A stretch of DNA of 64,000 nucleotides from an uncultured Methylococcaceae bacterium (GTDB lineage Bacteria; Pseudomonadota; Gammaproteobacteria; Methylococcales; Methylomonadaceae). Positions within the stretch are counted from its first letter, which is position 1, and each line of letters begins with the position of its first letter. The notes below the pieces were generated by a model. The model ran no database searches, was not told the DNA's origin, and saw only the letters and a program-made list of their open reading frames with translations. Where the stretch lies: contig CAIXAE010000043.1 in the NCBI GenBank assembly GCA_903917345.1, positions 1-64,000 of the forward strand, read 5' to 3'. Below, piece after piece: positions 167-36,440 of this stretch. The translations under genes were made by a program, and so were the position numbers.

Positions 167-213
167 AATGGAGCTCATAACCGGATTTGAACCGGTGACC
201 TCTTCCTTACCAA
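167..213. repeat. Left attachment site (tRNA-Thr 3' end duplicate)
   Basis: These 47 bp are identical to 36362-36408, which covers the 3' part of the tRNA-Thr(GGT) gene including the encoded CCA, the T arm and the 3' side of the anticodon stem. Identity stops on both sides: A166 against T36361, and A214 against G36409. This is the expected footprint of a tyrosine integrase that uses a tRNA 3' end as attB. No tRNA 5' half is present here, so this copy is not a functional gene. Confidence 0.95.
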
Positions 214-460: not shown

Positions 461-883
461 CTAACCTACCTCTTTACTTTGTTTATGAGCCGAATTAACA
501 AACGTCTCAGCCACGGTCTCGAGCACGACACGCTGCTCTTTCGATAAATCCAGAATAAGATTAGCCAATGCGCGCGCCTCGCGTTCTCTTCTGGATACAG
601 CGGTCGTGTCTCCGCATCCCTCGGGTAACAGATCATTGATGTCTGGCATGATTTCAGCGGGATGAACCGCCAACACTTTGGCCAAACGCAGTACTGCCTC
701 CACATTTAAGGGCACGATGCCACAGAGATATTGCGAAAACGCGGATTGCCCATTCCAGCCGCAGGCATGTCCTGCGATCTCTTGGGTCAATTTTAAAATC
801 TGTTTCTTTTCCAACCAGATGCTCTTAAAGCGTTCTAAGTTAGCTAGTTCTATTTCGTTTAAGGGTCGTCTTTTAGTCGCCAT
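461..883 (-). CDS. Phage-type HTH transcriptional repressor
   Basis: This 140-residue protein probably acts as the CI-like repressor of the element. Residues about 28-80 resemble a phage XRE-type DNA-binding domain, with segments such as SAFSQYLCGIVPLN and VEAVLRLAKVLAVHPAEI. The C-terminal part is short and helical and shows no S24/LexA-type autocleavage domain, so any induction would need another route. It is divergent from the cro-like gene at 1043, with about 160 bp of operator-rich DNA between them, the classical lambdoid switch layout. Repeated ACTA/TAGT half-sites lie in that gap. The role is inferred from domain type and context. Confidence 0.8.
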   Translation of the reverse strand: MATKRRPLNEIELANLERFKSIWLEKKQILKLTQEIAGHACGWNGQSAFSQYLCGIVPLNVEAVLRLAKVLAVHPAEIMPDINDLLPEGCGDTTAVSRREREARALANLILDLSKEQRVVLETVAETFVNSAHKQSKEVG

Positions 884-1042: not shown

Positions 1043-1273
1043 ATGCAAGTAATACAGGTTTATCTTAATCAACAAGGCATGTCACAAGCCGAGTTTGGTC
1101 GCAAAGTAGGCGTCGGCCAAACCATGGTTCAACAATGGATTTCGGGCAAACGGCCCATCAGTATTGTTAAAGCACTCGACATAGAAGCGACGTGCTCTAT
1201 TGATGCTCATTTATTAAATAACGAGATTTCTTTATTAGAAGATCGTTTGCGTGCGCGCGAACTTTCTAAATAG
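1043..1273 (+). CDS. Cro-like HTH protein
   Basis: This small DNA-binding protein of 76 residues has a clear helix-turn-helix: MSQAEFGRKVGVGQTMVQQW followed by ISGKRP. Proteins of this size divergent from a repressor usually serve as Cro/YdaS-type antirepressors. The ATG at 1043 is preferred to the in-frame ATG at 959, because the longer version would run through the operator and promoter region and encode an unconserved-looking leader. The replication gene follows after 30 bp, as in lambdoid early operons. The C-terminal third is a charged helix that may serve in dimerisation. Confidence 0.78.
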   Translation: MQVIQVYLNQQGMSQAEFGRKVGVGQTMVQQWISGKRPISIVKALDIEATCSIDAHLLNNEISLLEDRLRARELSK

Positions 1274-1303: not shown

Positions 1304-2251
1304 ATGAAATCTCCCCAACTTGCCAATGGTTACACCCCAATCGCCAACGAACTCCTAGAGGGCCTGATATGTTACAAATTCACTCAGAACGACTATAAAG
1401 TGTTACTCGCTATCATTCGTAAAACCTATGGCTACCACAAGAAATGGGATGCCATCGGCAACTCACAACTAGCCACGATGACGGGCTTACAGCGCACGCA
1501 TGTCGCCCGTTCTATTCGCTCTTTAATTGCTCAGAACGTCTTAATCACGGACGATTCCCAGTACAAAAACACCCTAGGGATTAACAAGCATTATCAAAAC
1601 TGGGGTAAAACAAATATCGAAACCCCTCAGCCAAAAACCGACCCGCAAACTGTGACCAATCTGGTCATAGTTCCAGAATTAAACTGTGACCAAGTTGGTC
1701 TCGATGATGTGACCAATGTGGTCATACTTAATAACCAAAACTGTGACCACATTGGTCATACACAAAAGAAAGTAAAAGAAAGTATAAATAAAACACCACT
1801 ACTACTCAGCAATGCACCGATTAACGGCACTGCAAAAAACGGCCTCAGTCGTGGTGGTTTTATAAATGGTATGTCAGGTGCAGAGCAAAGCCCTGCAGCA
1901 GACAATCCTCTCATCTTTCCCAAAAGCCTCAGCGAAGTAGAAACAAAAGCGGCTTTACAGTTACTCGTGCATTGTTCGGATTCATCACAAGCCCTACTTG
2001 ATGTGGTTGCCGCCACCATCAAAGCCGGCAAAGTACAAACCTCTCCCCTCGCCTTACTTGGGGCATTAATTCGTAGACAAACCGCCGGCACCTTTGACCC
2101 CAGCCCCGGCTTAAAAATAAAACTCGATCGAGAACGGGTCATCATTACTCAGAAAAAAGTGCCTCCCTCTCTACCGATTGATAAAGAAGCTCAACGCCAA
2201 AACATGGCTAATTTTTTAAGTGCTACGAATATCCGACTCAGCAAACACTGA
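1304..2251 (+). CDS. Phage replication protein O-like
   Basis: This 315-residue protein has an N-terminal winged-helix domain (residues about 5-100) of the phage replication protein O family. It includes LLEGLICYKFTQNDYKVLLA and a TYGYHKKWDAI segment typical of that domain. Such proteins bind origin iterons and recruit the host helicase. Four 19-bp palindromic iterons lie inside the gene (1651-1760) and encode the variable linker at residues about 117-152, exactly as the lambda origin lies within O. No P-like helicase loader gene follows; the C-terminal part could recruit DnaB directly, or a host loader may be used. Confidence 0.85.
   Translation: MKSPQLANGYTPIANELLEGLICYKFTQNDYKVLLAIIRKTYGYHKKWDAIGNSQLATMTGLQRTHVARSIRSLIAQNVLITDDSQYKNTLGINKHYQNWGKTNIETPQPKTDPQTVTNLVIVPELNCDQVGLDDVTNVVILNNQNCDHIGHTQKKVKESINKTPLLLSNAPINGTAKNGLSRGGFINGMSGAEQSPAADNPLIFPKSLSEVETKAALQLLVHCSDSSQALLDVVAATIKAGKVQTSPLALLGALIRRQTAGTFDPSPGLKIKLDRERVIITQKKVPPSLPIDKEAQRQNMANFLSATNIRLSKH
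1651..1760 (+). other. Candidate replication origin: four iterons inside the O gene
   Basis: Four 19-bp units start at 1651, 1685, 1708 and 1742. The first reads TGTGACCAATCTGGTCATA. Each holds the inverted half-sites TGACCA and TGGTC around two or three variable bases. Spacings are 34, 23 and 34 bp, roughly whole helical turns. An A-rich tract (about 1762-1796) follows directly, matching the unwinding region beside the lambda origin. Both the position within the O-type gene and the layout point to a theta-type origin. Confidence 0.8.
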
Positions 2252-2301: not shown

Positions 2302-2637
2302 ATGCTTAAATTTAACACCGATTCCATCCTGCCTTATCTTACGGCCATGTGGGTTTTTGCCTTATCTTTACTCTCATCGATCGTGACTTATTTCAATCAC
2401 GAATGCTCAGGGGAAGTCATAAAAAATCATACGATGACCTTTTTTAGGGACTTCTTTTATTGCCAAATGGCCGGTTTAGTCACTTACTTTTTAGCCGCAG
2501 CCGCCGATTATGAACCCCTGGTGATTGCCGCCCTCGTTTCAGCTGGAAGCCACATGGGAGCTCGCTTGATCATCGCCATAGAGGAGTTTGTACTTAGGGC
2601 AATACACCTCTGTAATATCGAAAAGGAACAAAACTAA
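2302..2637 (+). CDS. Holin, superfamily III / LydA-like
   Basis: This 111-residue membrane protein has hydrophobic segments at about residues 9-28 (TAMWVFALSLLSSIVTYF), 54-70 and 74-92. The segment AALVSAGSHMGARLI resembles the conserved C-terminal transmembrane motif of LydA-type holins. Holins make the membrane lesions that release endolysin at the end of a lytic cycle. It overlaps the next gene by one base and opens the long operon that runs to 7285. The matching endolysin is probably the M15 peptidase at 8827-9252. Confidence 0.65.
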   Translation: MLKFNTDSILPYLTAMWVFALSLLSSIVTYFNHECSGEVIKNHTMTFFRDFFYCQMAGLVTYFLAAAADYEPLVIAALVSAGSHMGARLIIAIEEFVLRAIHLCNIEKEQN

Positions 2638-2951
2638 TGGTTAGAGTCAAGGGTCCCTTATTTTCAGTAGCCGCTTCCGGTATTTTTAACGGCCTGATGG
2701 AATACCGCACAGGGCAAGGAAAAACCACCGTGCATGGTATTCGCCGACCTAACCCGACACGCTCTGTCGCACAGGTCGAGCAATCCCTACGCTTTAGCCA
2801 TGCCGTCATAGGTTGGCAAGCGCTTAACACGAGCCAAAAAACCGCTTGGAAAACGGCGGCCTTAGCCACGCCACATAACGGGTACCAGCTCTACATTTCA
2901 GAATACCAAACCCAAAACATCCAGCCACCTAACCAGCCGATCGCGCCATGA
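2637..2951 (+). CDS. GPL-family small protein 1 (candidate structural protein)
   Basis: This 104-residue protein has an N-terminal signature, VKGPLFSVAASGIFNG, shared with the proteins at 4663, 5285 and 7371. A second shared block is a tryptophan-based motif, VIGWQALNTSQKTAWKTAA, ending in NGYQLYI. Proteins with this W-L-Q-W-A plus aromatic-I pattern are encoded in many phage-like elements but have no assigned function that I know of. Translational coupling to the holin (TAATG overlap) and to the next gene suggests co-production. A virion or assembly role is inference from the operon and from the multiplication of the family. Confidence 0.75.
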   Translation: MVRVKGPLFSVAASGIFNGLMEYRTGQGKTTVHGIRRPNPTRSVAQVEQSLRFSHAVIGWQALNTSQKTAWKTAALATPHNGYQLYISEYQTQNIQPPNQPIAP

Positions 2952-3184
2952 ACCGCCTAAACTTTAGAAAGCTGTATCAGAAGTACCGTATTTGGTTACG
3001 CCGGAGCAAAACGAACGAGTGTCGGTGGATTCGCTTTAATCATGAATTCGATTACGAAACCGACTGTTCGCATTATTACGAAATGATCGAACCCAATGGC
3101 CAAAAACAAACCCGCTTTGATTACTGCCCTTTTTGCGGAAAGCCCATGGTCGAAGAAGTCCTAATGGATTGCGGGAGTTTCTAA
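2948..3184 (+). CDS. Small zinc-ribbon protein
   Basis: This 78-residue basic protein overlaps the preceding gene by four bases (ATGA). Its C-terminal half carries RFDYCPFCGKPM, a CxxC knuckle typical of small phage zinc ribbons, with further cysteines at residues 25, 40 and 75 that could complete a metal site. Such proteins are common in phage early and accessory regions and are usually of unknown function. Nothing in the sequence indicates a specific partner. Confidence 0.7.
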   Translation: MNRLNFRKLYQKYRIWLRRSKTNECRWIRFNHEFDYETDCSHYYEMIEPNGQKQTRFDYCPFCGKPMVEEVLMDCGSF

Positions 3185-3186
3185 AG

Positions 3187-3720
3187 ATGCTCAATAAAAA
3201 AGGCGTCATCGTAGCCGATGCCAACTTAACCTTACTCACCGGTGATGACTGGGCCCCGTGGTTTGAACAAGCCATCAACGAGGCCACCGATTCAATTCAT
3301 TTATCCATATACATGATTTCAGATCATTGGCGTTCACCCGAAGTGGGCCAATTAAACTTAGTCAAGACTTTAGCCCTAGCCGCTAGGCGTGGCCTCAACT
3401 GCCGCATCATTATTGATCAACAAAAAGTGCTCAATCGCCGGATTCGGTTCAACACCCAAGCCGCGCTTAAGTTACAGGCCGCCGGCTGGAAAATACGCGT
3501 CATGCCAGCCAACAAAACCCTGCATGAAAAGGTGATGTTGATCGATAAACACACCACCATCATAGGTTCACACAATATTTCAAAAGCCAGTGCCGTCAGT
3601 AACTACGACAGCTCTCTGGCCATCGATTCAGAACAACTAGCCCTTAAAATTTACCGACAATTTTGGGAGAGGTGGCGTGTCGCCACACCTTTCACCGGTG
3701 ATGTATGGCAAATGTCTTAA
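3187..3720 (+). CDS. PLD-superfamily nuclease-like protein (single HKD motif)
   Basis: This 177-residue protein has one phospholipase-D-type motif, LHEKVMLID (HxKx4D), followed by IIGSHNISKASA, in its C-terminal half. Single-HKD proteins of this size, such as Nuc, work as dimers and cleave DNA or RNA phosphodiesters without metal. The ATG at 3187 is chosen because GGGAG lies about ten bases upstream; an in-frame ATG at 3133 overlaps the previous gene by more than 50 bases. There is no signal peptide. It may process element DNA or degrade host or rival nucleic acid; the context does not decide between these. Confidence 0.8.
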   Translation: MLNKKGVIVADANLTLLTGDDWAPWFEQAINEATDSIHLSIYMISDHWRSPEVGQLNLVKTLALAARRGLNCRIIIDQQKVLNRRIRFNTQAALKLQAAGWKIRVMPANKTLHEKVMLIDKHTTIIGSHNISKASAVSNYDSSLAIDSEQLALKIYRQFWERWRVATPFTGDVWQMS

Positions 3721-4670
3721 GGCAATCTATCCCGCCCAGCCTAATAGCGGCTTACAAAACCGTTTTAAATACGCCCTATAAAGCGACCAGCAACGCCGTG
3801 CGTCTAGGTTTAAACACAAAAGCGACCCAAGCACAGCCGGTCAAACCAGCTAATAAACTGCTAAAAGTCCAAACCGAAGCGGCGCATTGGCTCACCGATC
3901 AATGGCAACCCGCCCACGCCGCGGCCTTTTATGCCGAGCGTTTGCAAGAATTAAAGACCCAACTCATTAATCCTGATTATTGGTACACCGTTTCACCCAG
4001 TGCAGACCGCACCGAATGGGGCACGCCCGAACTATTAGCCTATGAAAGACCGGTTAACGGTCAATATGCAGATCCGCTCAGAATACAAAGCAACTGCGTT
4101 TATACCCAGTGGTCAAAGACTTACCCAACACCGTTAGACGCCGGCACCGACACCGAACCCGCCCCCGGTTGGGAGGGTTTAGTCACCGATCAAATCTGGC
4201 AAGACCTCTGGTTTGCGCAACGGCGCTTAAGTTACGCCCTGCCGGTGTCAGTCAGCAAAACCGACAGCCGACCTGTATTAATTGACCTTAACAGTACCGT
4301 TGACGCGATCGCCACCTTTAGAGCCAATACCAGTTGGTTTGCCCGTGGCGTTTATGCCGAGTTCAGCCACACCCATACACCGCCCACGCCAATCGAAAAT
4401 TACCTAATCACAAAATGGCGCAAGCAAGATATTTACCCCATGGACTTGCTCAACACAGACCCGCACTATTTCACCTGCACAAATACCGTGCGGGTATTGC
4501 TCAGCGCCCGCGCTTCAAGGCGTTTTGATCATCTACCCAGTGCTAATTTACTCAGCCTCATCGTGACCACGCCACCCGCCAGAGGCGTGTATTTCGCCAG
4601 AAACGATCATGTCAAAGTCACGCACCACGAAACCTTAAACCTCATGATAGGAAAAACACCGCATGGTTAA
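3705..4670 (+). CDS. Unknown protein in the structural-like operon
   Basis: I do not recognise this 321-residue soluble protein. It has no membrane segments or signal peptide. It is rich in tryptophan, proline and threonine and has many aromatic residues spread along the chain, a composition common in virion surface proteins. The start overlaps the PLD gene by 16 bases and the end overlaps the next gene by eight, so it belongs to the same tightly packed transcript. A structural role is possible but rests on context alone. Confidence 0.72.
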   Translation: MANVLRQSIPPSLIAAYKTVLNTPYKATSNAVRLGLNTKATQAQPVKPANKLLKVQTEAAHWLTDQWQPAHAAAFYAERLQELKTQLINPDYWYTVSPSADRTEWGTPELLAYERPVNGQYADPLRIQSNCVYTQWSKTYPTPLDAGTDTEPAPGWEGLVTDQIWQDLWFAQRRLSYALPVSVSKTDSRPVLIDLNSTVDAIATFRANTSWFARGVYAEFSHTHTPPTPIENYLITKWRKQDIYPMDLLNTDPHYFTCTNTVRVLLSARASRRFDHLPSANLLSLIVTTPPARGVYFARNDHVKVTHHETLNLMIGKTPHG

Positions 4671-4923
4671 GATCACTCGCCCCCTGTTTGCAGAGGCAGC
4701 GACCGGCAAAATAGGCGACATTGGCACGTTTAGAAACGGGCAACACGGCCCCGAATTCATGGTGATCAGCACACCGATTGATAGGAAAACCCCTAAACAA
4801 GTGGGTATCAGAACCTGTTTTAAAACAGCCATAAAAACATGGGCAACGCTCAACAGAACCACCCGCCCCAGTTGGCAAGCCTATTGGCGCACCTGGTTAA
4901 CACAACACCCGGAGTGTAAATAA
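4663..4923 (+). CDS. GPL-family small protein 2 (divergent, short)
   Basis: This 86-residue protein starts VKITRPLFAEAATGKIGD, aligning with the GPL signature of the proteins at 2637, 5285 and 7371, and contains the family's W block (TWATLNRTTRPSWQAYW). It stops before the aromatic LYI ending seen in its relatives, so it is either truncated or a minimal version. It overlaps both neighbours: eight bases upstream, and one base (TAATG) downstream. No function is known to me. Confidence 0.7.
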   Translation: MVKITRPLFAEAATGKIGDIGTFRNGQHGPEFMVISTPIDRKTPKQVGIRTCFKTAIKTWATLNRTTRPSWQAYWRTWLTQHPECK

Positions 4924-5282
4924 TGCAACTCAAAGCCCACCAGATCACCGAACGCGTTCGCGGTTTATTGCACAGCGGCTACGACCCCTTTACTAAAAAA
5001 GCCTTAAAGATGGTTTACCAAAAGGTTAGACAAGGCTTGGGTAACGTAGAACAAGACGACTGCGACAATCTGCAATTACGCATCCAAGCCAAAATCAGGG
5101 ACAAAAAAAGCCCCGCTCAGTTGCAATGTCGTGCGCGTATCCGCGCAGCGACTACCGCATGGCATGGCTTAGATGACCACCAGAAAAACACCTATCGACA
5201 GTATGCCGAGTTCAAACACATGACCGGCTTTAATTTGTTTATTCGTAATTACTGCCAACTTCACCCTTTAACGGAGTTTTAA
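4923..5282 (+). CDS. GPL-family-related protein 3 (replaced N-terminus)
   Basis: This 119-residue protein lacks the GPL signature at its N-terminus. Its C-terminal half carries the family's second block: SPAQLQCRARIRAATTAW, GLDDHQKNTYRQYA and TGFNLFI. It therefore looks like a paralogue in which the N-terminal half was exchanged for a basic helical segment. Translational coupling by TAATG links it to the previous gene, and two bases separate it from the next. Function unknown. Confidence 0.7.
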   Translation: MQLKAHQITERVRGLLHSGYDPFTKKALKMVYQKVRQGLGNVEQDDCDNLQLRIQAKIRDKKSPAQLQCRARIRAATTAWHGLDDHQKNTYRQYAEFKHMTGFNLFIRNYCQLHPLTEF

Positions 5283-5284
5283 TC

Positions 5285-5665
5285 ATGGCAAAAATATCCG
5301 GGCCTTTATGCTCACAAACCGCCCAAGGCAATTACGGCAAGGGTGCGATTCAGTTTAGATTAGGGCTAGGCGGAGCCCATGCCTATAAACCCCTCAGCCC
5401 AGCTAAACAAAACCAAGCGTTAGCAACACAAGCCCAAAACGCGCAGCGCTTAAAGTTCCAAGCGGTGCGCGATGCGTGGAAATTATTAACGCTCGAGCAA
5501 AAGGCTGATTACAAAATCGAAGCCCGAAAACTAGGCACCCTGTCCGGCTGGAACCTGTACATATCACTCAATATCAATCATCCGATGTGGCCCATCGAGG
5601 CGCTATTAAGCTCAGATGGCACGCCGTTTTATACGCAGTTAAACCAAACATTACTCATCGACTAG
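5285..5665 (+). CDS. GPL-family small protein 4
   Basis: This 126-residue protein shows the full family pattern: KISGPLCSQTAQGNYGKG at the start, then AWKLLTLEQKADYKIEA and SGWNLYISLN. A 30-residue tail follows. Three full-pattern paralogues, plus the short copy and the chimaeric one, within 5.3 kb is a strong sign of lineage-specific duplication in an assembly or decoration module. Base composition matches its neighbours. Function unknown. Confidence 0.75.
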   Translation: MAKISGPLCSQTAQGNYGKGAIQFRLGLGGAHAYKPLSPAKQNQALATQAQNAQRLKFQAVRDAWKLLTLEQKADYKIEARKLGTLSGWNLYISLNINHPMWPIEALLSSDGTPFYTQLNQTLLID

Positions 5666-5673
5666 GTAACACC

Positions 5674-6261
5674 ATGCCCCATATTAATGAATTACCCACG
5701 CTCAATAGAGCCGTAGAACAAACCGACCAACTCATCGTAGAGGCCGCCGAGGGCACCCGCCGTATCAATGCCACCGCCTTTAAGGGCACGGATGGCGAGA
5801 ACGGCACCAACGGCGCAACGGGCGCCACCGGCCCACAAGGTGAAACCGGCCCGCAAGGCGAACCGGGGGGAGGTGGCGAAGGCGGTTCTACACGGGTGAC
5901 AACTGGATTTGTCACCGGTGTCATCAACCAGTTTGCAACCGGTACGGGTGTTTTTGCTCTACCAAAAAGTAGCGAGATTTTAAACGTGGTTTTATCCGGT
6001 TTTGCCAGACTTAGGCTGTACGATACAGCAACGGCGCGGGATGCAGACCTAGGCCGTTCGGTTTATCAAACCCCGATAGCCGGCAAAGGCTTAATACTCG
6101 ATATCAATAGCACGGTGGTTTTGAGTCAAAACTTAGATCCACATGCACAGGCGTCTAATGCTGATAACCCACCGGCCACCGCTATTTATTACGCGTTAGA
6201 AAATCATGGCGCCACGGGCGCACTATCAATTTCATTCACTTACTTAACCAAGGAAATCTAA
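5674..6261 (+). CDS. Collagen-like repeat protein, phage fibre type
   Basis: This 195-residue protein has a helical N-terminus (about 35 residues), then roughly nine Gly-X-Y triplets (GATGPQGETGPQGEPGG) and a C-terminal beta-rich domain of about 130 residues. Collagen-like stretches trimerise and are common in phage fibres and spikes, where the C-terminal domain binds the receptor. The ATG at 5674 is chosen because AGGTAAC precedes it; an upstream in-frame ATG at 5587 lies inside the previous gene. The stop overlaps the next start (TAATG). Confidence 0.78.
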   Translation: MPHINELPTLNRAVEQTDQLIVEAAEGTRRINATAFKGTDGENGTNGATGATGPQGETGPQGEPGGGGEGGSTRVTTGFVTGVINQFATGTGVFALPKSSEILNVVLSGFARLRLYDTATARDADLGRSVYQTPIAGKGLILDINSTVVLSQNLDPHAQASNADNPPATAIYYALENHGATGALSISFTYLTKEI

Positions 6262-7121
6262 TGGCACGTTTAATAAAGCACGACTTATATGACTGGAATT
6301 ACACCGATGAAAAGTTTAGGGCATGGTGTGGTTTTATCGATGAACTGTTTATGCTCGGTATGATCAATGTCACCGATGCCGGGCAGATGGATTTAAGCAC
6401 TGTTGCACATCCAGTGAGTGGTGATGTCAGCAGTGGCTATAAGATTTATCAAACCGATGACGCCTTAACACCGGTTTTTTTTAAGGTCGAATTTGGCGGT
6501 TATTATTCCCCAACAACGCCTTGTATTTGGATGACCATCAGCACGGAATATACTGTGGGCGGTACGATGGGCGGCAGAACATTGCTCGCTAGAACCCAAC
6601 TATTTACCCTAGCTCAAAGTGAAACACAACTACAAACCTGTATGGGTAGCGCAGGCCCCAACCGGATTTGTTTTGCGATGTTTACGGACATAGCGACCGC
6701 GCCCTTTTGGTTTAGCTTTGAACGTAGAAAAAACAGCAGTCTTGAAGATGTCGATACCGGCGTGTTAATCGATTGGGGTGAATCTACAAACCAACACTAC
6801 AGCTTATGTGCACCCTTTGAAGGGCCTATTCCAGTACAAGAATATGGCTTTCAGTTTATTTTAACCACCCTAAATCCGGGCGTTTACGGCAGTGAAGTGC
6901 CGGTCGGTTTAAGGATTCCCTGCTTAGGCCCAAGTGAAGCACCGGGTAAAAATATCGGCTTCTGTAACGCCGCAGATTTTGGGGATTTTGCAGAACCCAT
7001 GCTCACCCTAGGCACAGAAGAAATCGCCTTTAAACACTGCGGGCCTAATATACATTCCCTGCGTGGCGCAAATACAACATGGGTAGATAGCCACACCCGC
7101 TTATTATTGAGGTTTGACTAA
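6261..7121 (+). CDS. Probable virion surface protein
   Basis: This 286-residue, beta-rich, cysteine-containing protein has no signal peptide. Segments such as YKIYQTDDALTPVFFKVEFG and SAGPNRICFAMF resemble phage-encoded particle or fibre-associated proteins that I know only as hypothetical families. It follows the collagen-like protein with a one-base overlap and is in turn coupled to a 54-residue gene. The position next to a fibre-like protein favours a surface role; no catalytic motif is visible. Confidence 0.65.
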   Translation: MARLIKHDLYDWNYTDEKFRAWCGFIDELFMLGMINVTDAGQMDLSTVAHPVSGDVSSGYKIYQTDDALTPVFFKVEFGGYYSPTTPCIWMTISTEYTVGGTMGGRTLLARTQLFTLAQSETQLQTCMGSAGPNRICFAMFTDIATAPFWFSFERRKNSSLEDVDTGVLIDWGESTNQHYSLCAPFEGPIPVQEYGFQFILTTLNPGVYGSEVPVGLRIPCLGPSEAPGKNIGFCNAADFGDFAEPMLTLGTEEIAFKHCGPNIHSLRGANTTWVDSHTRLLLRFD

Positions 7122-7285
7122 TGGCAGTTGATACCGGTTTATACACCGGTTTTAATCATGCTTTTCAGGCGAATTATCATCGACGTTTTAGAGGCGGGCA
7201 AATTTGGCGAGCGTTTACGATGCGGCGTTCCAGTTTTGGCAATCTTTATGGGGCCATTACCGGCCAGTTATGGCCGCGTTATTGA
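7121..7285 (+). CDS. Small unknown protein, last gene of the operon
   Basis: This 54-residue basic protein starts at an ATG that overlaps the preceding stop (TAATG). It begins MAVDTGLYTGFNHAF, contains a central stretch rich in arginine, phenylalanine and glycine, and has no transmembrane segment. The coupled start and undisturbed frame make it probably real despite its size. Function unknown. Confidence 0.55.
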   Translation: MAVDTGLYTGFNHAFQANYHRRFRGGQIWRAFTMRRSSFGNLYGAITGQLWPRY

Positions 7286-7302
7286 TATTTCAAAGACTTA
7301 GC

Positions 7303-7333
7303 TTGACAACCGTTCGATTCGTAGGGGTAAACT
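7303..7333 (+). promoter_or_regulatory. Candidate promoter for the 7371 gene
   Basis: A consensus TTGACA (7303-7308) is followed after 19 bases by TAAACT (7328-7333). The spacing is long and the -10 match is 4 of 6. The downstream gene has a clear AGGTG ribosome binding site and its own terminator, which supports separate transcription. Confidence 0.5.
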
Positions 7334-7370
7334 CAGCTTAGTTTTTTAATTTACTCTATGAGGTGTCAAA

Positions 7371-7919
7371 ATGGCTAAAGTATCAGGTCCTTTAATGTCT
7401 ATGGAAGCGAGCGGAAAATTTGGTGGTACTTTGGTATTCACTAAATGGAAAGGTCGCCCTGTAGTACGTCAGTTAGTTAAACCCGCGAATCCAAAAAGCG
7501 CGGACCAAGAGTTAGCGCGTAATAGAACCCGCGTGACCGGTGCAGTACAAAGCTGGTTAAATAAAACACTCTTAAAAGCGACTGCGCAAACTTTAACCCA
7601 AAAAGCCCGTATTAAAGCGGTCACTCCGGGTGGTTATGCGTGGAACGGTTTCATCACAGCCACTATTATTGGGGCCGGTGGTTTAGCTTATACCGCAGCA
7701 ACCGCGGCTTATGCAGAATTAGAAGTGCTAGAAAAAACAGCATGGGATGATGCGGCAGCGGCCTTGGTTCCTGCTATTAATGATGTTTATCAAACCGTAG
7801 CCGGGGGTGGAGCGGGTGTAGCCATCAAACAAGGTGAAGTGTTTTTTATTCAGCAATACGGCTTAAGTTTAATCAGCTTGGCTACTGCACCCGGTGCAGT
7901 ACCTCCGACTTATGCTTAA
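7371..7919 (+). CDS. GPL-family protein 5, separately transcribed; candidate major structural protein
   Basis: This 182-residue protein begins AKVSGPLMSMEASGKFGG, the clearest version of the family signature, followed by VRQLVKPANPKSADQE. A glycine/alanine-rich hydrophobic centre (about residues 92-120, containing FITATIIGAGGLAYTAATAA) and a second W block (YAELEVLEKTAWDDAAAAL) follow. It is the longest family member and the only one with its own promoter candidate, a good ribosome binding site and a strong terminator. That is the expression pattern expected for an abundant virion protein. The structural role is inference; no homologue with known structure is recognised. Confidence 0.75.
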   Translation: MAKVSGPLMSMEASGKFGGTLVFTKWKGRPVVRQLVKPANPKSADQELARNRTRVTGAVQSWLNKTLLKATAQTLTQKARIKAVTPGGYAWNGFITATIIGAGGLAYTAATAAYAELEVLEKTAWDDAAAALVPAINDVYQTVAGGGAGVAIKQGEVFFIQQYGLSLISLATAPGAVPPTYA

Positions 7920-8826: not shown

Positions 8827-9252
8827 TTAAACCACAACTACCTTATGCGCAGTATCCCTATAAAACTGCAGAGGCTTACCCAGCAGATTCTGACAGTGGA
8901 CAAGCTCAGGGAAACTTACCCAATCACCAGCCCATTCCAGACCGACAGACTTAGCGAGGGCACCACATCGGGCATACAAGTGCGGATTATTCCACTCCGC
9001 CTTACCATTCACCACCGCGCAGAAATCAAACGCCAAGCGATAATTATGTGCCGATTGACCCGGGCGGGCATGTGTGACTTTTGGACCATCAACCGTTCGC
9101 CCCTGAGCATATAAGAATTGCTGAGCTTGATTATCACGATACGTCGAGGTAATGATCACATCAATATTCTGAGACTTACACGCCGCTATAAAATCATGAC
9201 ACTGACCCATGACCGTAGGATTTAAATCATTAACATCTCGGCTATTAATCAT
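8827..9252 (-). CDS. M15-family peptidoglycan endopeptidase (phage endolysin)
   Basis: This 141-residue protein carries the M15_4-type zinc site: SAHNYRLAFDF supplies SxHxxxxAxD, preceded by VIITSTYRDNQAQQFLYAQG, and LEWAGDW lies near the C-terminal zinc histidine (LVHCQ). L-alanyl-D-glutamate endopeptidases of this class are endolysins of T5-like and other phages. There is no signal peptide, so release would rely on the holin. The gene is on the strand opposite to the holin and structural-like operon and converges on the lipoprotein gene, which is unusual for a lysis cassette. Confidence 0.85.
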   Translation of the reverse strand: MINSRDVNDLNPTVMGQCHDFIAACKSQNIDVIITSTYRDNQAQQFLYAQGRTVDGPKVTHARPGQSAHNYRLAFDFCAVVNGKAEWNNPHLYARCGALAKSVGLEWAGDWVSFPELVHCQNLLGKPLQFYRDTAHKVVVV

Positions 9253-9361: not shown

Positions 9362-9619
9362 ATGGACTACGAACGCCCCTATTGCTTCATTCGAGGGGGC
9401 TATCAGATAGCCACCGAGCGAGTCATCATGCAGTTCAATGATTATTCGATCTACGCCTTTAACGAACTCACCTTAGACGATTGGAATAACTGGGTAGACG
9501 CCTATCCACACGGCACCTTTTTCAACCTAGAGTATCGGAATACCGACATAGAATTTTTAAAACTTAAAACATACCCTGACAATTTATATAACGAATTCAG
9601 AGAACCATCATCGCCCTGA
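9362..9619 (+). CDS. Small acidic protein of unknown function
   Basis: This 85-residue acidic, aromatic-rich protein contains YAFNELTLDDWNNWVDAYPH. AGGTAAC lies seven bases before the ATG at 9362; an alternative start is at 9428. It has no membrane segment or known motif. Its neighbours are the endolysin and a large helicase, both on the other strand, so it stands alone. An acidic small phage protein could be an inhibitor, but nothing specific supports that. Confidence 0.5.
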   Translation: MDYERPYCFIRGGYQIATERVIMQFNDYSIYAFNELTLDDWNNWVDAYPHGTFFNLEYRNTDIEFLKLKTYPDNLYNEFREPSSP

Positions 9620-27603: not shown

Positions 27604-28290
27604 TTACAAGCTCTTCACGTCATCAATGCCAAATTGCTTTAAGATTTGAATCGCATTGGTTTTAACCACATCATCTTTAAAACCGCTGTCTTTAAAAACC
27701 ACTCGCATTACTTCCGGTGCCAACTCAGCTTTTAAATGCCCAATGCCTTCAACGACCTCTAAACTAATGTCATCCGCTAAACACACCACTAAAGCCCCAA
27801 AGCCTATGGCGTAAACCGTTTTTCCATTCACTTGATGGACTTCAATGGGCACGGTTAAATCCAGACCGTATTTAAGCAAGATCTCTGTCAGCACATCGTC
27901 TTCGCTACGGTCTTCTTTAATGTTATCGACAATATTGAGTAAGGTATCTTCCAGGTTATCAAAATCAGCATCCCAGGGTTTGATGTTAGAAGAATCGAGT
28001 TTGAAGACTTTAAAGCCGATGTCGAGGTTTTCAATGGTACTGGGAATTTTTTCACCTGCACGTCGTATACGCTCTTTACCAATATCCGCAATCGTTTTAA
28101 AGCCCGCTTTATAGGCTTCTGTTTTTTCAGTACACGGCTCAGGGAGTTGCACCATAATAAATTGTCGATTGCCACTATCTTCAGCATTGAGCTGCATAAC
28201 GGCATGGGCAGTAGTGGCTGAGCCACAAAAAAAATCCAGAATGATCTCATTACTTGATACCTGAACCATTTCAATCATAATTTTTAACAT
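27604..28290 (-). pseudogene. mod: Type III DNA methyltransferase Mod, C-terminal part (after frameshift)
   Basis: These codons continue Mod after a one-base frame change: IILDFFCGSATTAHAVMQLN carries motif I (FxGxGxT-like, S-adenosylmethionine binding), and RQFIMVQLPEPC follows. The true frame extends upstream to about 28373; the ATG at 28290 is internal. Both halves together would give about 646 residues, normal for type III Mod. On its own this fragment has no catalytic DPPY motif and cannot be active. Confidence 0.88.
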
Positions 28291-28352
28291 ATCTAATGGC
28301 TTAGGATTCTCAAAAACAAGCCTCCCGAATTCAGATTTACACCACCTTGTAT

Positions 28353-29543
28353 CTATGGAGTTATCAAAATACCAAAATTATCTGGCACAGATACATCATC
28401 TGGATTTATATAATCCTTTAATCCGGGAGGTGTATCATCTGAACCATACCAAATTAGACCTGCTTCTTGAAGGCGCTTAAGCTCATCTTCACTTTTACCC
28501 CATCCTCTATTTGGTATTACACAAGGCAGTCCTGTATGGGGATTAGTAATTGTATAATTCTTTGCGCCACCTTCCCTTGAAAGATCTGCGTCTTTAAAAA
28601 CACCATGCTCATCTACTTTGTTCCATCTACTTAAATGGGAGTATTTTGAGCGTTTATACATCTCCTTAACTTCTAATTCTATTTCTGAAATAGGCAATCC
28701 TTGCTTACTAAGATTATTAAATAAATTGGCAACATCTTGAGCCCCTTTTTTTCTTACACGCCAATTTACTTCTTTAAGTGCATTTTTGTTTTTTGCATAA
28801 CAATAAAAGTATTCAGTTGAAACACTAACTAATTTGGCTTGATTCTTACTTGAATTATTTTTATGAATGTATTGCGCGATAAAATTCTCTTCTCCAAAAA
28901 TTTCATCACTTAATTTACGCAGATTAGTTACCTCATTATCATCAATAGAGATAAAAATAACTCCATCATCACGCAACAGGTTCCTCGCTAATTTCAAACG
29001 CGGGTACATCATGTTCAACCAGTTAGTATGATAACGGCCTGAGGTTTCGGCATTAGTACCAAATTTACGGCCAGCTTCATCTTGCTGATGGGTGTATTGC
29101 AGGTAGGTATCGAGGTTATCCTGATAATTATCGGGATAAATAAATTCATTACCGGTGTTGTAAGGTGGATCGATATAAATCATCTTCACTTGTTTATGAT
29201 ATGACTTTTGCAATAGCTTTAGCACTTCTAGGTTATCGCCTTCGATAAACAGATTTTGAGTCGTGTCCCAGTGTTTACTTTCTGCTTTACACGGTCTTAA
29301 AGTGCCCGTAGACGGTGTTTGTGCAATGCGCTTAGCCATGGCTTTACCGTTCCAAGTAAAGTTATAGCGCTCTTCTTGGGTTTCGACCGCATCACCCAAG
29401 GTCTCCTTGAGTTTATCAAAATCGATTTTTCCTTCACTGAAAACTTCAGGAAATAAGGTTTTCAGTTGCTCGATATGACTCTCCACGATATTAAGGCTAC
29501 TACCGTCAGATTCTTTTTTTAATTGTTCCATGCCATTTTCCAT
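28353..29543 (-). pseudogene. mod: Type III DNA methyltransferase Mod, N-terminal part (frameshifted)
   Basis: This 396-codon frame contains motif IV, IYIDPPYNTGNEFIYPDN, and the target-recognition region, in the order of beta-class type III Mod enzymes. It ends with VPDNFGILITP and a stop. Shifting by one base at the AAAA run 28374-28377 (TTTT in the coding strand) restores WYFDNSIDTRWCKSEFGRLV and a continuous frame into the C-terminal part. One T is missing from a run that should have five. This could be natural inactivation, phase variation or a sequencing error. Confidence 0.9.
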
Positions 29544-34370: not shown

Positions 34371-34973
34371 ATGAATATCACTCTCTATCCACTTGGTGCT
34401 TATGTGTCAGGTTACTGTCTGCCCTTCACTATCGATCTGGATGATATTAGCCTGCCAGAATTTGGCCAAGCGATATCAACCGGTCTATTCGAAACCGATT
34501 ACCAAACCACCGGTGGCTCTGTTTTATCCTCGCGCTGTTTGCAATGTAAAACGGTCTTTATCGGCACCGTTGAAAAAGAATGCCCCTGCTGTGGTCATAT
34601 TGGTTTTGAGCTCAAATGTACCGATGAAGAATGGATTGTGTGCGACTCAGAAGATGTGCCCAGCGACTATGTGGGCGAATACAGTTTGAGTGATGATTTT
34701 TTTGAGTATGCCGAATTAATCAAGAATACCTATCTCGATGCGGACACCATTAAAGCCGGTCTCGCGTGTGGGCTGGATCTGGCGGCTATTGAAGGGGCTT
34801 ATCAAGGTAAATTCGATTCTGATGCAGATTTTGCCGAACACTTCGCAGAACAAACCGGCGAGTTTAACGAAAAGCTCAACTGGCCGTTTACCTGTATCGA
34901 TTGGCAATGGGCATCCATCGATTTAATGCACGACTATACAGAACACAAGCAACATTATTTTTATCGGCATTAA
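34371..34973 (+). CDS. ArdA-like antirestriction protein with inserted zinc ribbon
   Basis: This 200-residue acidic protein ends with WPFTCIDWQWASIDLMHDYT and YFYRH, the C-terminal pattern of ArdA DNA mimics that block type I restriction enzymes. The N-terminal ITLYPLGAYVSGYCLPFTID also fits. Unusually, residues about 54-75 form a four-cysteine knuckle pair (CLQCKT, CPCCG) between the two, which classical ArdA lacks. Its promoter carries two immunity-type operators, so expression probably rises on induction or transfer, when protection against host restriction matters. Confidence 0.72.
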   Translation: MNITLYPLGAYVSGYCLPFTIDLDDISLPEFGQAISTGLFETDYQTTGGSVLSSRCLQCKTVFIGTVEKECPCCGHIGFELKCTDEEWIVCDSEDVPSDYVGEYSLSDDFFEYAELIKNTYLDADTIKAGLACGLDLAAIEGAYQGKFDSDADFAEHFAEQTGEFNEKLNWPFTCIDWQWASIDLMHDYTEHKQHYFYRH

Positions 34974-35038: not shown

Positions 35039-35353
35039 ATGCAAGCATTAGGTTTAATAGAAGCGGCAGATTTTTTGCTGATGAACGCAGAGGTTCTACG
35101 TCGCAAAGCAAACAGAGGCGATGTGCCGGGGCGCAAGGCCGGCAAGAAGTGGGTATTTATCAAAGAACACCTTGCCGACTGGGTAAGCGGTCGTTATCCT
35201 GACCGCGGCCAAACCTTGCGAGTCATTGATGGAGGCTTAACGACAACTGGGGTTATAGAAACATGTCAATTTACAGACGCAAAGATACGTGGTGGATTCA
35301 AATTACCACAGCAAACGGCGAGCGAATACAACGCTCTTCTGGGACTAAAGTAA
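35039..35353 (+). CDS. Excisionase-like HTH protein
   Basis: This 104-residue protein has an N-terminal MerR/Xis-type winged helix: GLIEAADFLLMNAEVLRRKA, followed by PGRKAGKKWVFIKEHLADWV. That is the standard fold of small excisionases. GGAAGT precedes the ATG at 35039; a longer frame from 34901 would overlap the ardA gene. It overlaps the integrase start by 91 bases in another frame, so the pair is translationally linked, as xis-int pairs often are. Confidence 0.8.
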   Translation: MQALGLIEAADFLLMNAEVLRRKANRGDVPGRKAGKKWVFIKEHLADWVSGRYPDRGQTLRVIDGGLTTTGVIETCQFTDAKIRGGFKLPQQTASEYNALLGLK

Positions 35354-36270
35354 AACAAGAAGCCCAAGAACTGCATGACAAATTAAAGGCTGAAAGTTGG
35401 CGTGTTAAGAAGTTAGGCGAGAAACCACGCCGGTCGTGGCAAGACGTGGTGATTCGATGGCTCACAGAACACAAAGACAAAAAGAGCATCGAAACCGATA
35501 AAGTCATTTTGCGGTGGTTTAACCCAAGGTTACAAAACAAGTTCATCGATGAGATTAACAAAGAACTGGTCGAAAAGTTTAAGCAAGACAAACTTAACGA
35601 GGGTTCGTGTAACAGCTCGGTAAACCGCTATATTGGCGTTTTAAACGCAATGCTTAGAAAAGCGAAAGATCAATGGGAATGGATAGACGATGTCCCAAAA
35701 ATCACTTTATTACCCGAACAAAGCAGACGTCTACGCTGGTTATCGCACGAAGAAGCTAAAAGACTACTCAAAGAATTACCAGAGCATTTAAACGCGATGG
35801 TGCGCTTCTCTTTAGCCACAGGTTTACGAGAAGCCAATGTTTGCGGCTTGCAATGGTCTCAAGTGGATATGCAAAGAAAATGCGCATGGATACACGCCGA
35901 CCAAGCCAAAGCCGCTAAAGCGATTCCTGTCCCTTTAGGCGCAGAAGCATTAGCCGTTATTCGTGAACAGATTGGTAAGAATCACAATTACGTTTTCACT
36001 TATGAAGGCAATCCTGTCAGCCGTGCAAATAATCACGCTTGGCGAAAGGCTTTAATTAGAGCGGATATAACAGAGTTTCGCTGGCATGATCTACGCCACA
36101 CCTGGGCAAGTTGGCATGTACAGAACGGCACGCCTTTAAATATCTTAAAAGAACTGGGTGGTTGGGCTGATTTAAAGATGGTGATGCGTTACGCTCATCT
36201 ATCGAGCGACCATCTAAAAGAATTTGCAGACAATACGAGTTTAAAACAGAAAAGTAGAGTACTTCTTTAG
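35263..36270 (+). CDS. int: Tyrosine integrase
   Basis: This 335-residue phage-type integrase has an SAM-like core-binding domain (about residues 60-145) and the catalytic residues: Arg in ATGLREANVCGLQWSQ, HxxR in WHDLRHTWASWH, and Tyr in MRYAHLSSDHL, with HDLRHTWAS diagnostic. It lies 90 bases from the right attachment site, beside the intact tRNA-Thr, and catalyses integration and, with the excisionase, excision. The N-terminal MSIYRRKDTWWIQITTANGE is the arm-binding-like beta sheet. It appears intact. Confidence 0.95.
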   Translation: MSIYRRKDTWWIQITTANGERIQRSSGTKVKQEAQELHDKLKAESWRVKKLGEKPRRSWQDVVIRWLTEHKDKKSIETDKVILRWFNPRLQNKFIDEINKELVEKFKQDKLNEGSCNSSVNRYIGVLNAMLRKAKDQWEWIDDVPKITLLPEQSRRLRWLSHEEAKRLLKELPEHLNAMVRFSLATGLREANVCGLQWSQVDMQRKCAWIHADQAKAAKAIPVPLGAEALAVIREQIGKNHNYVFTYEGNPVSRANNHAWRKALIRADITEFRWHDLRHTWASWHVQNGTPLNILKELGGWADLKMVMRYAHLSSDHLKEFADNTSLKQKSRVLL

Positions 36271-36361: not shown

Positions 36362-36408
36362 AATGGAGCTCATAACCGGATTTGAACCGGTGACCTCTTC
36401 CTTACCAA
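36362..36408. repeat. Right attachment site (within tRNA-Thr)
   Basis: This 47-bp copy is the functional 3' end of the tRNA-Thr gene and is identical to 167-213. The crossover lies somewhere within these bases, and the tRNA remains complete after integration. Confidence 0.95.
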
Positions 36409-36440
36409 GGAAGCGCTCTACCTACTGAGCTATATGAGCT
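36364..36440 (-). tRNA. thrT: tRNA-Thr (GGT)
   Basis: The minus strand gives a full cloverleaf: acceptor AGCTCAT/ATGAGCT, D arm with AGCTCAGTAGGTAGAGC, anticodon loop TTGGTAA (anticodon GGT, Thr ACC/ACT), T arm GGTTCAAATCC and an encoded CCA. It is the last of three tRNAs in an operon that normally continues into tuf; the element is integrated at its 3' end. Confidence 0.95.

Follow-up and report, generated by a model that had tools for sequence, protein, structure and literature searches.

A conserved module of GPL-family, lysis and fibre genes in tRNA-gene-integrated elements of a Methylococcaceae bacterium and its relatives: a candidate particle-forming system

The DNA analysed here (the window) is the first 64 kb (64,000 nucleotides) of a 157-kb contig (CAIXAE010000043.1, assembly GCA_903917345.1) from the 2.48-Mb, 99.8% complete genome of an uncultured Methylococcaceae bacterium. 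It carries a 36.24-kb integrated element whose left end is a putative particle and lysis module, in which five related proteins (GPL1 to GPL5) are encoded together with a holin, a PLD-family protein, proteins of 321 and 286 amino acids (aa) and a collagen-like fibre protein; much of the remainder is cargo. We consider it likely that this module serves an extracellular transfer particle of some kind. The explanation that we rank first, and to which we give about an even chance, is that the particle is the element's own and free of an HK97-type capsid, and that the GPL genes form the centre of the particle and lysis functions in an undescribed temperate, integrating phage-like family; second comes a phage satellite that has lysis and attachment genes of its own. 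The genes in question are the following, in window coordinates (G016, G018 and G034 are genomes, L014 and L015 IMG/VR contigs, all described below; values without a label are E-values, and percentages are identities).

2302..2637, + strand: holin (PF16083, 1.1e-6; phrog_6384, 1e-7), present in L014 and L015 too
2637..2951, + strand: GPL1, 104 aa, basic (GPL profile, 5e-39), with predicted short strands and three helices
2948..3184, + strand: small Cys-containing protein (39% over 56 aa in G018 and G034, not seen in G016; Pfam and PHROG matches all weak)
3187..3720, + strand: PLD-family protein, Nuc-like (PF13091, 1.7e-23; single HKD motif by reading; a profile from five relatives matches Nuc, 1byr, at 1.3e-10)
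3705..4670, + strand: 321-aa core protein (35-56% in five relatives, 32% in Contendobacter)
4663..4923, + strand: GPL2, 86 aa (GPL profile, 5e-14)
4923..5282, + strand: GPL3, 119 aa (GPL profile, 1.7e-13)
5285..5665, + strand: GPL4, 126 aa (GPL profile, 1.5e-25)
5674..6261, + strand: collagen-like fibre protein (its collagen stretch matches tail-fibre PHROGs, the best at 4e-8; 48-54% in G016, G018 and G034)
6261..7121, + strand: 286-aa protein associated with the fibre and putatively receptor-binding (five relatives at 47-56%; four proteins of phage Tunturi_5 at 23-25%)
7121..7285, + strand: small protein with a TGQLWPRY end (by reading, G016, G018, L014 and L015 have a TGQLWP end in the corresponding position)
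7371..7919, + strand: GPL5, 182 aa, the most conserved GPL protein (59-72% to six relatives)
8827..9252, - strand: endolysin, VanY/M15 peptidase (PF02557, 1.9e-11; endolysin PHROGs, 5e-24)
9362..9619, + strand: KTSC-like protein, 85 aa (47-54% in G016, G018 and G034; KTSC, 3.6e-4, under the cut-off)

The original prediction, made from the letters of the sequence, had grouped the proteins starting at 2637, 4663, 4923, 5285 and 7371 into one family, with the 4923 protein keeping only the second half of the pattern, and had placed all but the last in a compact operon with a holin; each of these points was borne out. A profile built from 17 relatives outside the window and searched against the 264 six-frame open reading frames (ORFs) of the window, each at least 40 aa long, retrieved these five proteins and no others, with E between 5e-39 and 1.7e-13; the next window match had E 2.9 and the best reversed-sequence control E 0.71. 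The relatedness of the GPL proteins is far beyond chance. BLASTP alone connects eight of the ten pairs (GPL1-GPL4, 3e-9; GPL1-GPL2, 9e-9; GPL1-GPL5, 4e-7; GPL4-GPL5, 4e-6; GPL1-GPL3, 1e-5; GPL2-GPL5, 2e-4; GPL2-GPL3, 8e-4; GPL3-GPL4, 0.002), and GPL2-GPL4 and GPL3-GPL5 give no match at E 10. The second half of GPL3 aligns with GPL1 and GPL4, and the relatives of GPL3 keep a degenerate N-terminal half. Across 31 aligned GPL sequences the consensus opens with G-P-L-x-S-x-D-A-S-G, continues through a short region to P-x-x-P-x-S-x-x-Q-x-x-x-R and then has a block containing W. All five window GPL proteins are basic, as are GPL1 to GPL4 in 22 of the 22 sequences computed (isoelectric point, pI, 9.1-11.5), while GPL5 has pI 7.9-9.8 in six sequences and the 286-aa protein lies in the acidic range (pI 4.7-6.4, five sequences). 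Intergenic gaps from 2302 to 7285 measure -16 to +8 bases (taking 3187 and 5674 as the starts of the PLD and fibre genes), and 85 bases then precede 7371.

The module is carried by three complete elements, each in a different tRNA gene (Thr, 36.2 kb; Lys, 37.3 kb; Ser, 21.7 kb). In the window, exact 45-bp repeats lie at 169-213 and 36364-36408, where none is expected by chance, and an intact tRNA-Thr gene (36364-36439) holds the right-hand copy; the integrase gene (35263-36270) adjoins it. Since the paired repeats, the intact tRNA gene and the integrase stand together, the 36.24-kb element is, judged from its borders, complete and not cut by the contig end. Left of position 169, on the reverse strand, lies what we take to be the start of an EF-Tu gene. 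The G018 element is bounded by a 52-bp tRNA-Lys repeat (37.29 kb) and that of Candidatus Contendobacter by a 77-bp tRNA-Ser repeat (21.66 kb). The remaining features of the window element that bear on its integration, replication and control are these.

169..213, + strand: left border of the element, a copy of the attachment site corresponding to the tRNA-Thr 3' end (exact 45-bp match to 36364-36408)
461..883, - strand: repressor-like helix-turn-helix (HTH) protein (phrog_4 repressor, 4e-4; HTH_31, 0.0017, below the cut-off; 35% across 63 aa with a protein of the G018 element)
1043..1273, + strand: Cro-like HTH protein (HTH_3, 1.8e-9)
1304..2251, + strand: RepO-type replication initiator (PF04492, 6e-28; phrog_277, 4e-30)
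34371..34973, + strand: ArdA-like antirestriction protein (PF07275, 9e-7; 63% in G016 and G018)
35039..35353, + strand: HTH_17 putative excisionase (PF12728, 1.7e-5, just under the Pfam cut-off; 83% in the G018 element)
35263..36270, + strand: tyrosine integrase (PF00589, 9e-36; 74% and 47% in the two other complete elements)
36364..36408, + strand: attachment-site copy within the intact tRNA-Thr gene (45-bp repeat)

When non-overlapping ORFs of at least 60 aa from the three complete elements were compared by BLASTP, the integrase, Rep, GPL1, PLD, 321-aa, GPL4, fibre, 286-aa and GPL5 proteins proved common to all three, and the profile finds GPL2 and GPL3 in all three as well; a repressor-like gene links only the window with G018 and G018 with Contendobacter. 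Otherwise the three elements have little in common. Therefore, if the elements make a particle alone, its proteins should be within this common list. Moreover, the ratio of nonsynonymous to synonymous rates (omega) between G018 and G034, computed for nine module genes with the fibre gene left out, was low throughout: GPL1 0.07, PLD 0.02, 321-aa 0.16, GPL2 0.22 (0.215), GPL3 0.05, GPL4 0.12, 286-aa 0.08, holin 0.08 and GPL5 0 (24 synonymous and 0 nonsynonymous changes). On these ratios the nine genes are under purifying selection, and the module is functional rather than decaying.

Full-length homologues of the 321-aa protein occur in three other genomes of the same genus (51-56% identity). In G016, G018 and G034 one order is kept behind a replication gene (holin, GPL1, PLD, 321-aa, GPL2, GPL3, GPL4, fibre, 286-aa, GPL5), the replication gene of G016 being of a different type and the G034 module being split over two contigs. 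The G016 module is perhaps on a plasmid, because ParA-like and Rep-like genes were recognised by reading on the same contig. The order is likewise kept in the IMG/VR contig L015 and in Contendobacter (L018); the IMG/VR contig L014 shows it with extra genes and with another protein at the 286-aa position, no 286-aa gene being seen there. Both L014 and L015 hold extra GPL copies. A reshuffled form, with PLD, GPL proteins, a 293-316-aa protein and fibre-like genes, is found in three Patescibacteria loci, two from a Falkowbacteria genome (L021, L039) and one from a genome of the same class (L019); the 293-316-aa protein carries the GPL W-block (E 4e-5 to 3e-7) and aligns only weakly with the 321-aa protein (13-19% identity). 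At E 0.01 the profile counts five GPL proteins in G016, G018 and L018, seven each in L014 and L015, four in L039 and L049, three in L019, L021 and L051, and two in L050, L025 and L020, the counts for L019, L021, L039 and L049 including one weaker-matching 293-316-aa protein. In G055, from another genus of the family, part of a 600-aa frame (L006 1501-1686) weakly matches the 321-aa protein over residues 41-102 (E 9e-4).

The six lysins of the relatives belong to three families (M15, GH108, M23). Contendobacter has a GH108 lysozyme and, where the holin would sit, a different small protein, so that a holin is not recognisable there. Together, the holin and the endolysins point to a lysis function. 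For attachment, the 309-kb phage Tunturi_5 is informative: four tandem homologues of the 286-aa protein (L027 7974-11392; 23-25% identity) directly follow its tail-fibre genes, and for this reason a receptor-binding role of the 286-aa protein seems likely. By profile comparison, the nearest solved structure to the PLD protein is the Nuc endonuclease. The 321-aa protein has no Pfam, PHROG or PDB match.

No head or packaging gene accompanies these proteins in our scans. One filter gives 43 non-overlapping ORFs of 60 aa or more in the element; the Pfam scan took 39 ORFs, not exactly the same set, and the PHROGs scan 22. Neither scan gave a match to a capsid (HK97 or other), portal or terminase, nor to tail tube, sheath or baseplate families, and in all nine modules inspected the non-overlapping ORFs of 70 aa or more were free of a Walker A motif. 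The G018 and Contendobacter elements were read through, few of their proteins being scanned. Tail-fibre PHROGs and three 'virion structural' PHROGs match the collagen stretch of the fibre (among the 25 of 44 families listed), and the endolysin matches a tape-measure PHROG at E 0.003. In the window's own genome, a search for three families (Terminase_3, Phage_capsid and TerL_ATPase) gave no match. Across seven carrier genomes searched for TerL_ATPase only, that family was absent from six and present in G018, at 4.30 Mb, about 190 kb from the G018 element.

These results refine the remaining claims of the original prediction. The absence of capsid, portal and terminase genes from the 36 kb stood up to both scans, and the absence of tail genes has to be qualified by the 286-aa family beside the Tunturi_5 tail fibres; the fibre has the collagen-like repeat and the PHROG matches, its Pfam match (9.9e-4) falling under the cut-off. 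Its proposal that the proteins form or assemble an undescribed particle, or a satellite's decoration set, is strengthened by their conservation with lysis and attachment genes in distant hosts, by purifying selection and by the lack of a capsid or terminase match in the profile searches made; no GPL fold match was obtained. Neither outcome that would have spoken against it, a match of the family to a known non-structural protein or a hidden capsid or terminase gene brought out by profile search, occurred. The PLD nuclease, the RepO-type gene, the opposite-strand endolysin and the defence cargo did not figure in it.

How might such an element work? The sequence supports a tRNA-gene site beside the element's own integrase, repressor-like genes, a RepO-type gene, a holin and an endolysin. 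On induction, the element would excise and then replicate, and the five basic GPL proteins would be made together with the 321-aa protein and the PLD nuclease. These proteins may coat or enclose the DNA, giving the element a particle of its own with neither an HK97 capsid nor a packaging ATPase, from which the fibre and the 286-aa protein would protrude as attachment proteins. The holin and endolysin would then release the particles by lysis.

GPL proteins also occur away from the full module. A circular 5,405-bp replicon in a metagenome-assembled genome of Falkowbacteria (L051 1-5546, with a 141-bp terminal repeat) has three tandem GPL proteins as its largest block, beside an HUH Rep (PF23343, 1.6e-10) and a 112-aa protein; one of its ORFs we take, by reading, to be Y1-transposase-like. 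A 5.4-kb contig, for which circularity was not seen, encodes an amidase (5e-12), a weak Rep match (0.01) and two GPL-like proteins (5e-6, 0.004). The presence of GPL proteins on these two molecules suggests that they are a structural part of small replicating elements too. With some reserve and at less than even probability, we propose an undescribed bacterial virus lineage that would range in Patescibacteria down to circular Rep elements of 5 kb and in Gammaproteobacteria up to integrated elements of 20-37 kb, its virion consisting of several paralogues of the small, mostly basic GPL family coating DNA, with no icosahedral HK97 shell or ATP-driven packaging, and its replication and fibre modules being exchangeable and accompanied by defence cargo. 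In a genome of the patescibacterial phylum (L049 2096-4887), three GPL genes in a row are followed by that of a 295-aa protein (GPL profile, 1.9e-5).

The prevalence of the system is low. Of 151 near relatives, five had the 321-aa protein (the own genome and a weak match are counted here), and GPL profiles found one of 369 genomes of the class (the own genome) and, in further genome sets, 3 of 286, 1 of 251, 2 of 380 and, as short GPL genes, 11 of 22. Searches by tblastn with GPL5, GPL1 and a Chloroflexota GPL protein against 50,697 phage records gave nothing, nor did the 321-aa protein against 72,556 plasmid records; the PLD protein matched a single 7.5-kb fecal record (25%), where reading revealed no further gene of the module. 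Two GPL5-type scans of 2.9 million IMG/VR contigs, which were not sensitive, yielded three distinct contigs; in all, three alignment queries, these two scans included, found contigs there, and three single-protein queries and one alignment query found nothing.

Several observations weigh against a GPL-coated particle of the element's own. The AlphaFold model of GPL1 (27 sequences), with three short strands at 15-35 and helices at 44-62, 65-75 and 82-91 (predicted local distance difference test, pLDDT, about 90), is of moderate overall quality (pLDDT 75, predicted template modelling score 0.51), and against PDB and BFVD all Foldseek matches had E of at least 0.45, that is, no fold match; the model of the 321-aa protein (4 sequences, pLDDT 31) is uninformative. 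Charge alone cannot single out the GPL proteins, because the 321-aa protein is basic as well (pI 8.8-9.8). GPL1 matches Phage_tail_terminator (PF23840) at E 0.044, with 14.1 bits under a cut-off of 27, which, if real, would point to a tail rather than a coat. A capsid may be too divergent for Pfam and PHROGs, and the circular 5,405-bp replicon could be a plasmid. Finally, in the class of Moorella mulderi, 11 of 22 genomes have short GPL genes (those listed measure about 110 aa), some with two copies (L052-L068, L038, L069-L075), and in the six of these whose surroundings were read they are lone chromosomal genes with no other module gene near. Thus the GPL domain is not solely a virion component; the Moorella-class genes are perhaps domesticated or part of another small element.

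Two candidate identities for the GPL family were rejected. A likeness to DUF6266 (PF19781) appeared only in L050, at the GPL domain and weakly (E 0.013, or 0.003 in its genome; best score 15.7 bits against a cut-off of 23.4), with no match at E 0.1 in 13 of the 14 genomes or records searched. The spacing of the W-block and the three predicted helices are reminiscent of an HMG box, but TFAM matched at E 0.14-0.95, equal to superoxide dismutase matches, and no HMG box stood among the 50 of 61 Foldseek matches listed.

A PADLOC scan of 10 proteins between 9718 and 33517 recognised a dense anti-phage cargo: a PDC-S53 helicase, AbiD, an AbiLi/AbiLii-like pair, Thoeris ThsB/ThsA, type III restriction-modification and an HKD+Snf2 protein. 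The type III methylase (27604-29543) is broken into two ORFs, corresponding to positions 398-620 and 5-344 of one PADLOC model, and a Fic gene lies between it and the restriction gene. The G+C content is 0.43-0.51 over the module, compared with 0.34-0.42 at 12-18 kb; the flanking chromosome is mostly at 0.36-0.42.

The strongest rival, which we hold to be possible though less probable than an own particle, is a phage satellite: a helper terminase would pack the element into a helper head, the GPL, fibre and 286-aa proteins would decorate or retarget that particle, and the element's own lysis genes would aid release. Such a satellite would fit the lack of a capsid or terminase match, the integrase and putative excisionase, the heavy anti-phage cargo (PDC-S53, AbiD, AbiL-like pair, Thoeris, type III restriction-modification), the use of the 286-aa family by a tailed phage, the TerL gene about 190 kb from the G018 element and the sub-threshold tail-terminator match of GPL1. 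Like phage-inducible chromosomal islands (PICIs), capsid-forming PICIs (cfPICIs), PICI-like elements (PLEs), phage-inducible chromosomal minimalist islands (PICMIs) and P4-like satellites, the element has an integrase, its own replication gene and defence cargo, and no full head-tail set; it differs from them in having its own holin, endolysin, fibre and conserved multi-gene module, in a size about twice that usual for PICIs, and in giving no Pfam match for psu, delta, epsilon, alpha, the PICMI primase or terminase in the 39 ORFs. It was compared with PICIs, P4-like satellites, PICMIs and cfPICIs by their published features. PICIs are described as lacking structural and lytic genes and measuring about 12-15 kb (PMC6092414), whereas this element has a holin and an endolysin in 36.2 kb. 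P4-like satellites are characterised by psu, delta, sid, alpA, epsilon and alpha, with sid recognised by a custom profile (PMC8628076); here the 39 ORFs have no PF07455, PF04606, PF05930, PF10554 or PF03288, sid not having been searched for. For PICMIs an integrase, AlpA (PF05930 or PF12728), a DUF3987/DUF5906 primase and a fis site are given (PMC10803314), and here an integrase and HTH_17 are present, with no primase in the 39 ORFs and a tRNA-Thr site. The cfPICIs have their own capsid genes (PMC11389934), for which the Pfam and PHROG scans of the element gave no match. Further points against a satellite are the own genome, which matches none of the three capsid and terminase families, the six of seven carriers that lack TerL_ATPase (other terminase families were not searched), and the GPL proteins on a 5.4-kb Rep replicon.

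A defective or domesticated prophage that lost its head genes, its fibre and lysis block now serving as a bacteriocin-like killing or DNA-release device, seems improbable to us: it would account for lysis and attachment genes without head genes and for defence cargo retained by the host, yet the same head-less set sits at three tRNA sites in distant hosts with integrase and Rep conserved and the nine genes analysed constrained, no tail tube, sheath or baseplate match was found, and the tail-terminator match of GPL1 is sub-threshold. Least probable, and very doubtful, is a tailed phage or temperate element with capsid and packaging genes too divergent to see, for which the 321-aa protein, matchless and present in every gammaproteobacterial and IMG/VR full-module copy examined, would be the capsid; none of the nine modules shows a Walker A motif, so a terminase would have to sit elsewhere or lack that motif, and the possible Patescibacteria counterpart of 293-316 aa, weakly as it aligns, carries the GPL W-block.

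Returning to the own HK97-free particle, its nearest precedent in kind, by analogy, is the virus-like element Charybdis (PMC12324425), which likewise combines a conserved putative structural module and protrusion or tail-like proteins with no hallmark capsid or packaging gene, and some members of which integrate. As described there, Charybdis is set apart by a size of about 4.6 kb, a marine origin, an archaeal host and other proteins, whereas the present elements are bacterial, 22-37 kb long, integrated and equipped with lysis and Rep genes. With lambda-type temperate phages the element shares repressor-like genes, a RepO-type initiator (PF04492), a PF16083 holin, an endolysin and an integrase, as well as RecT and YqaJ in L014, but here neither head, portal or terminase genes nor a tail tube or tape measure came to light. 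Tail-fibre or receptor-binding proteins of the tailed-phage kind may be present, given the 286-aa homologues beside the Tunturi_5 tail fibres and the collagen-stretch PHROG matches. Judged by titles and the beginnings of abstracts among the matches listed, with subscription papers thinly covered, the literature held no description of such elements that we recognised, Charybdis being the kindred case. The patescibacterial and methylotroph phages described in PMC13059738 are terminase-bearing or filamentous, not such an element.

Virus finders rest largely on capsid, portal and terminase hallmarks. A family of elements that lacks these hallmarks, though it conserves genes for lysis, attachment, integration and replication, would be easily overlooked. 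One relative resides in a named strain, the environmental methanotroph Methylobacter psychrophilus Z-0021, where the module lies on two contigs, which makes the question directly testable. Should the element make a particle of its own, virions could be built in a new way; should it be a satellite, it would be one that brings its own lysis and attachment genes. On either reading, anti-phage systems are apparently carried between bacteria.

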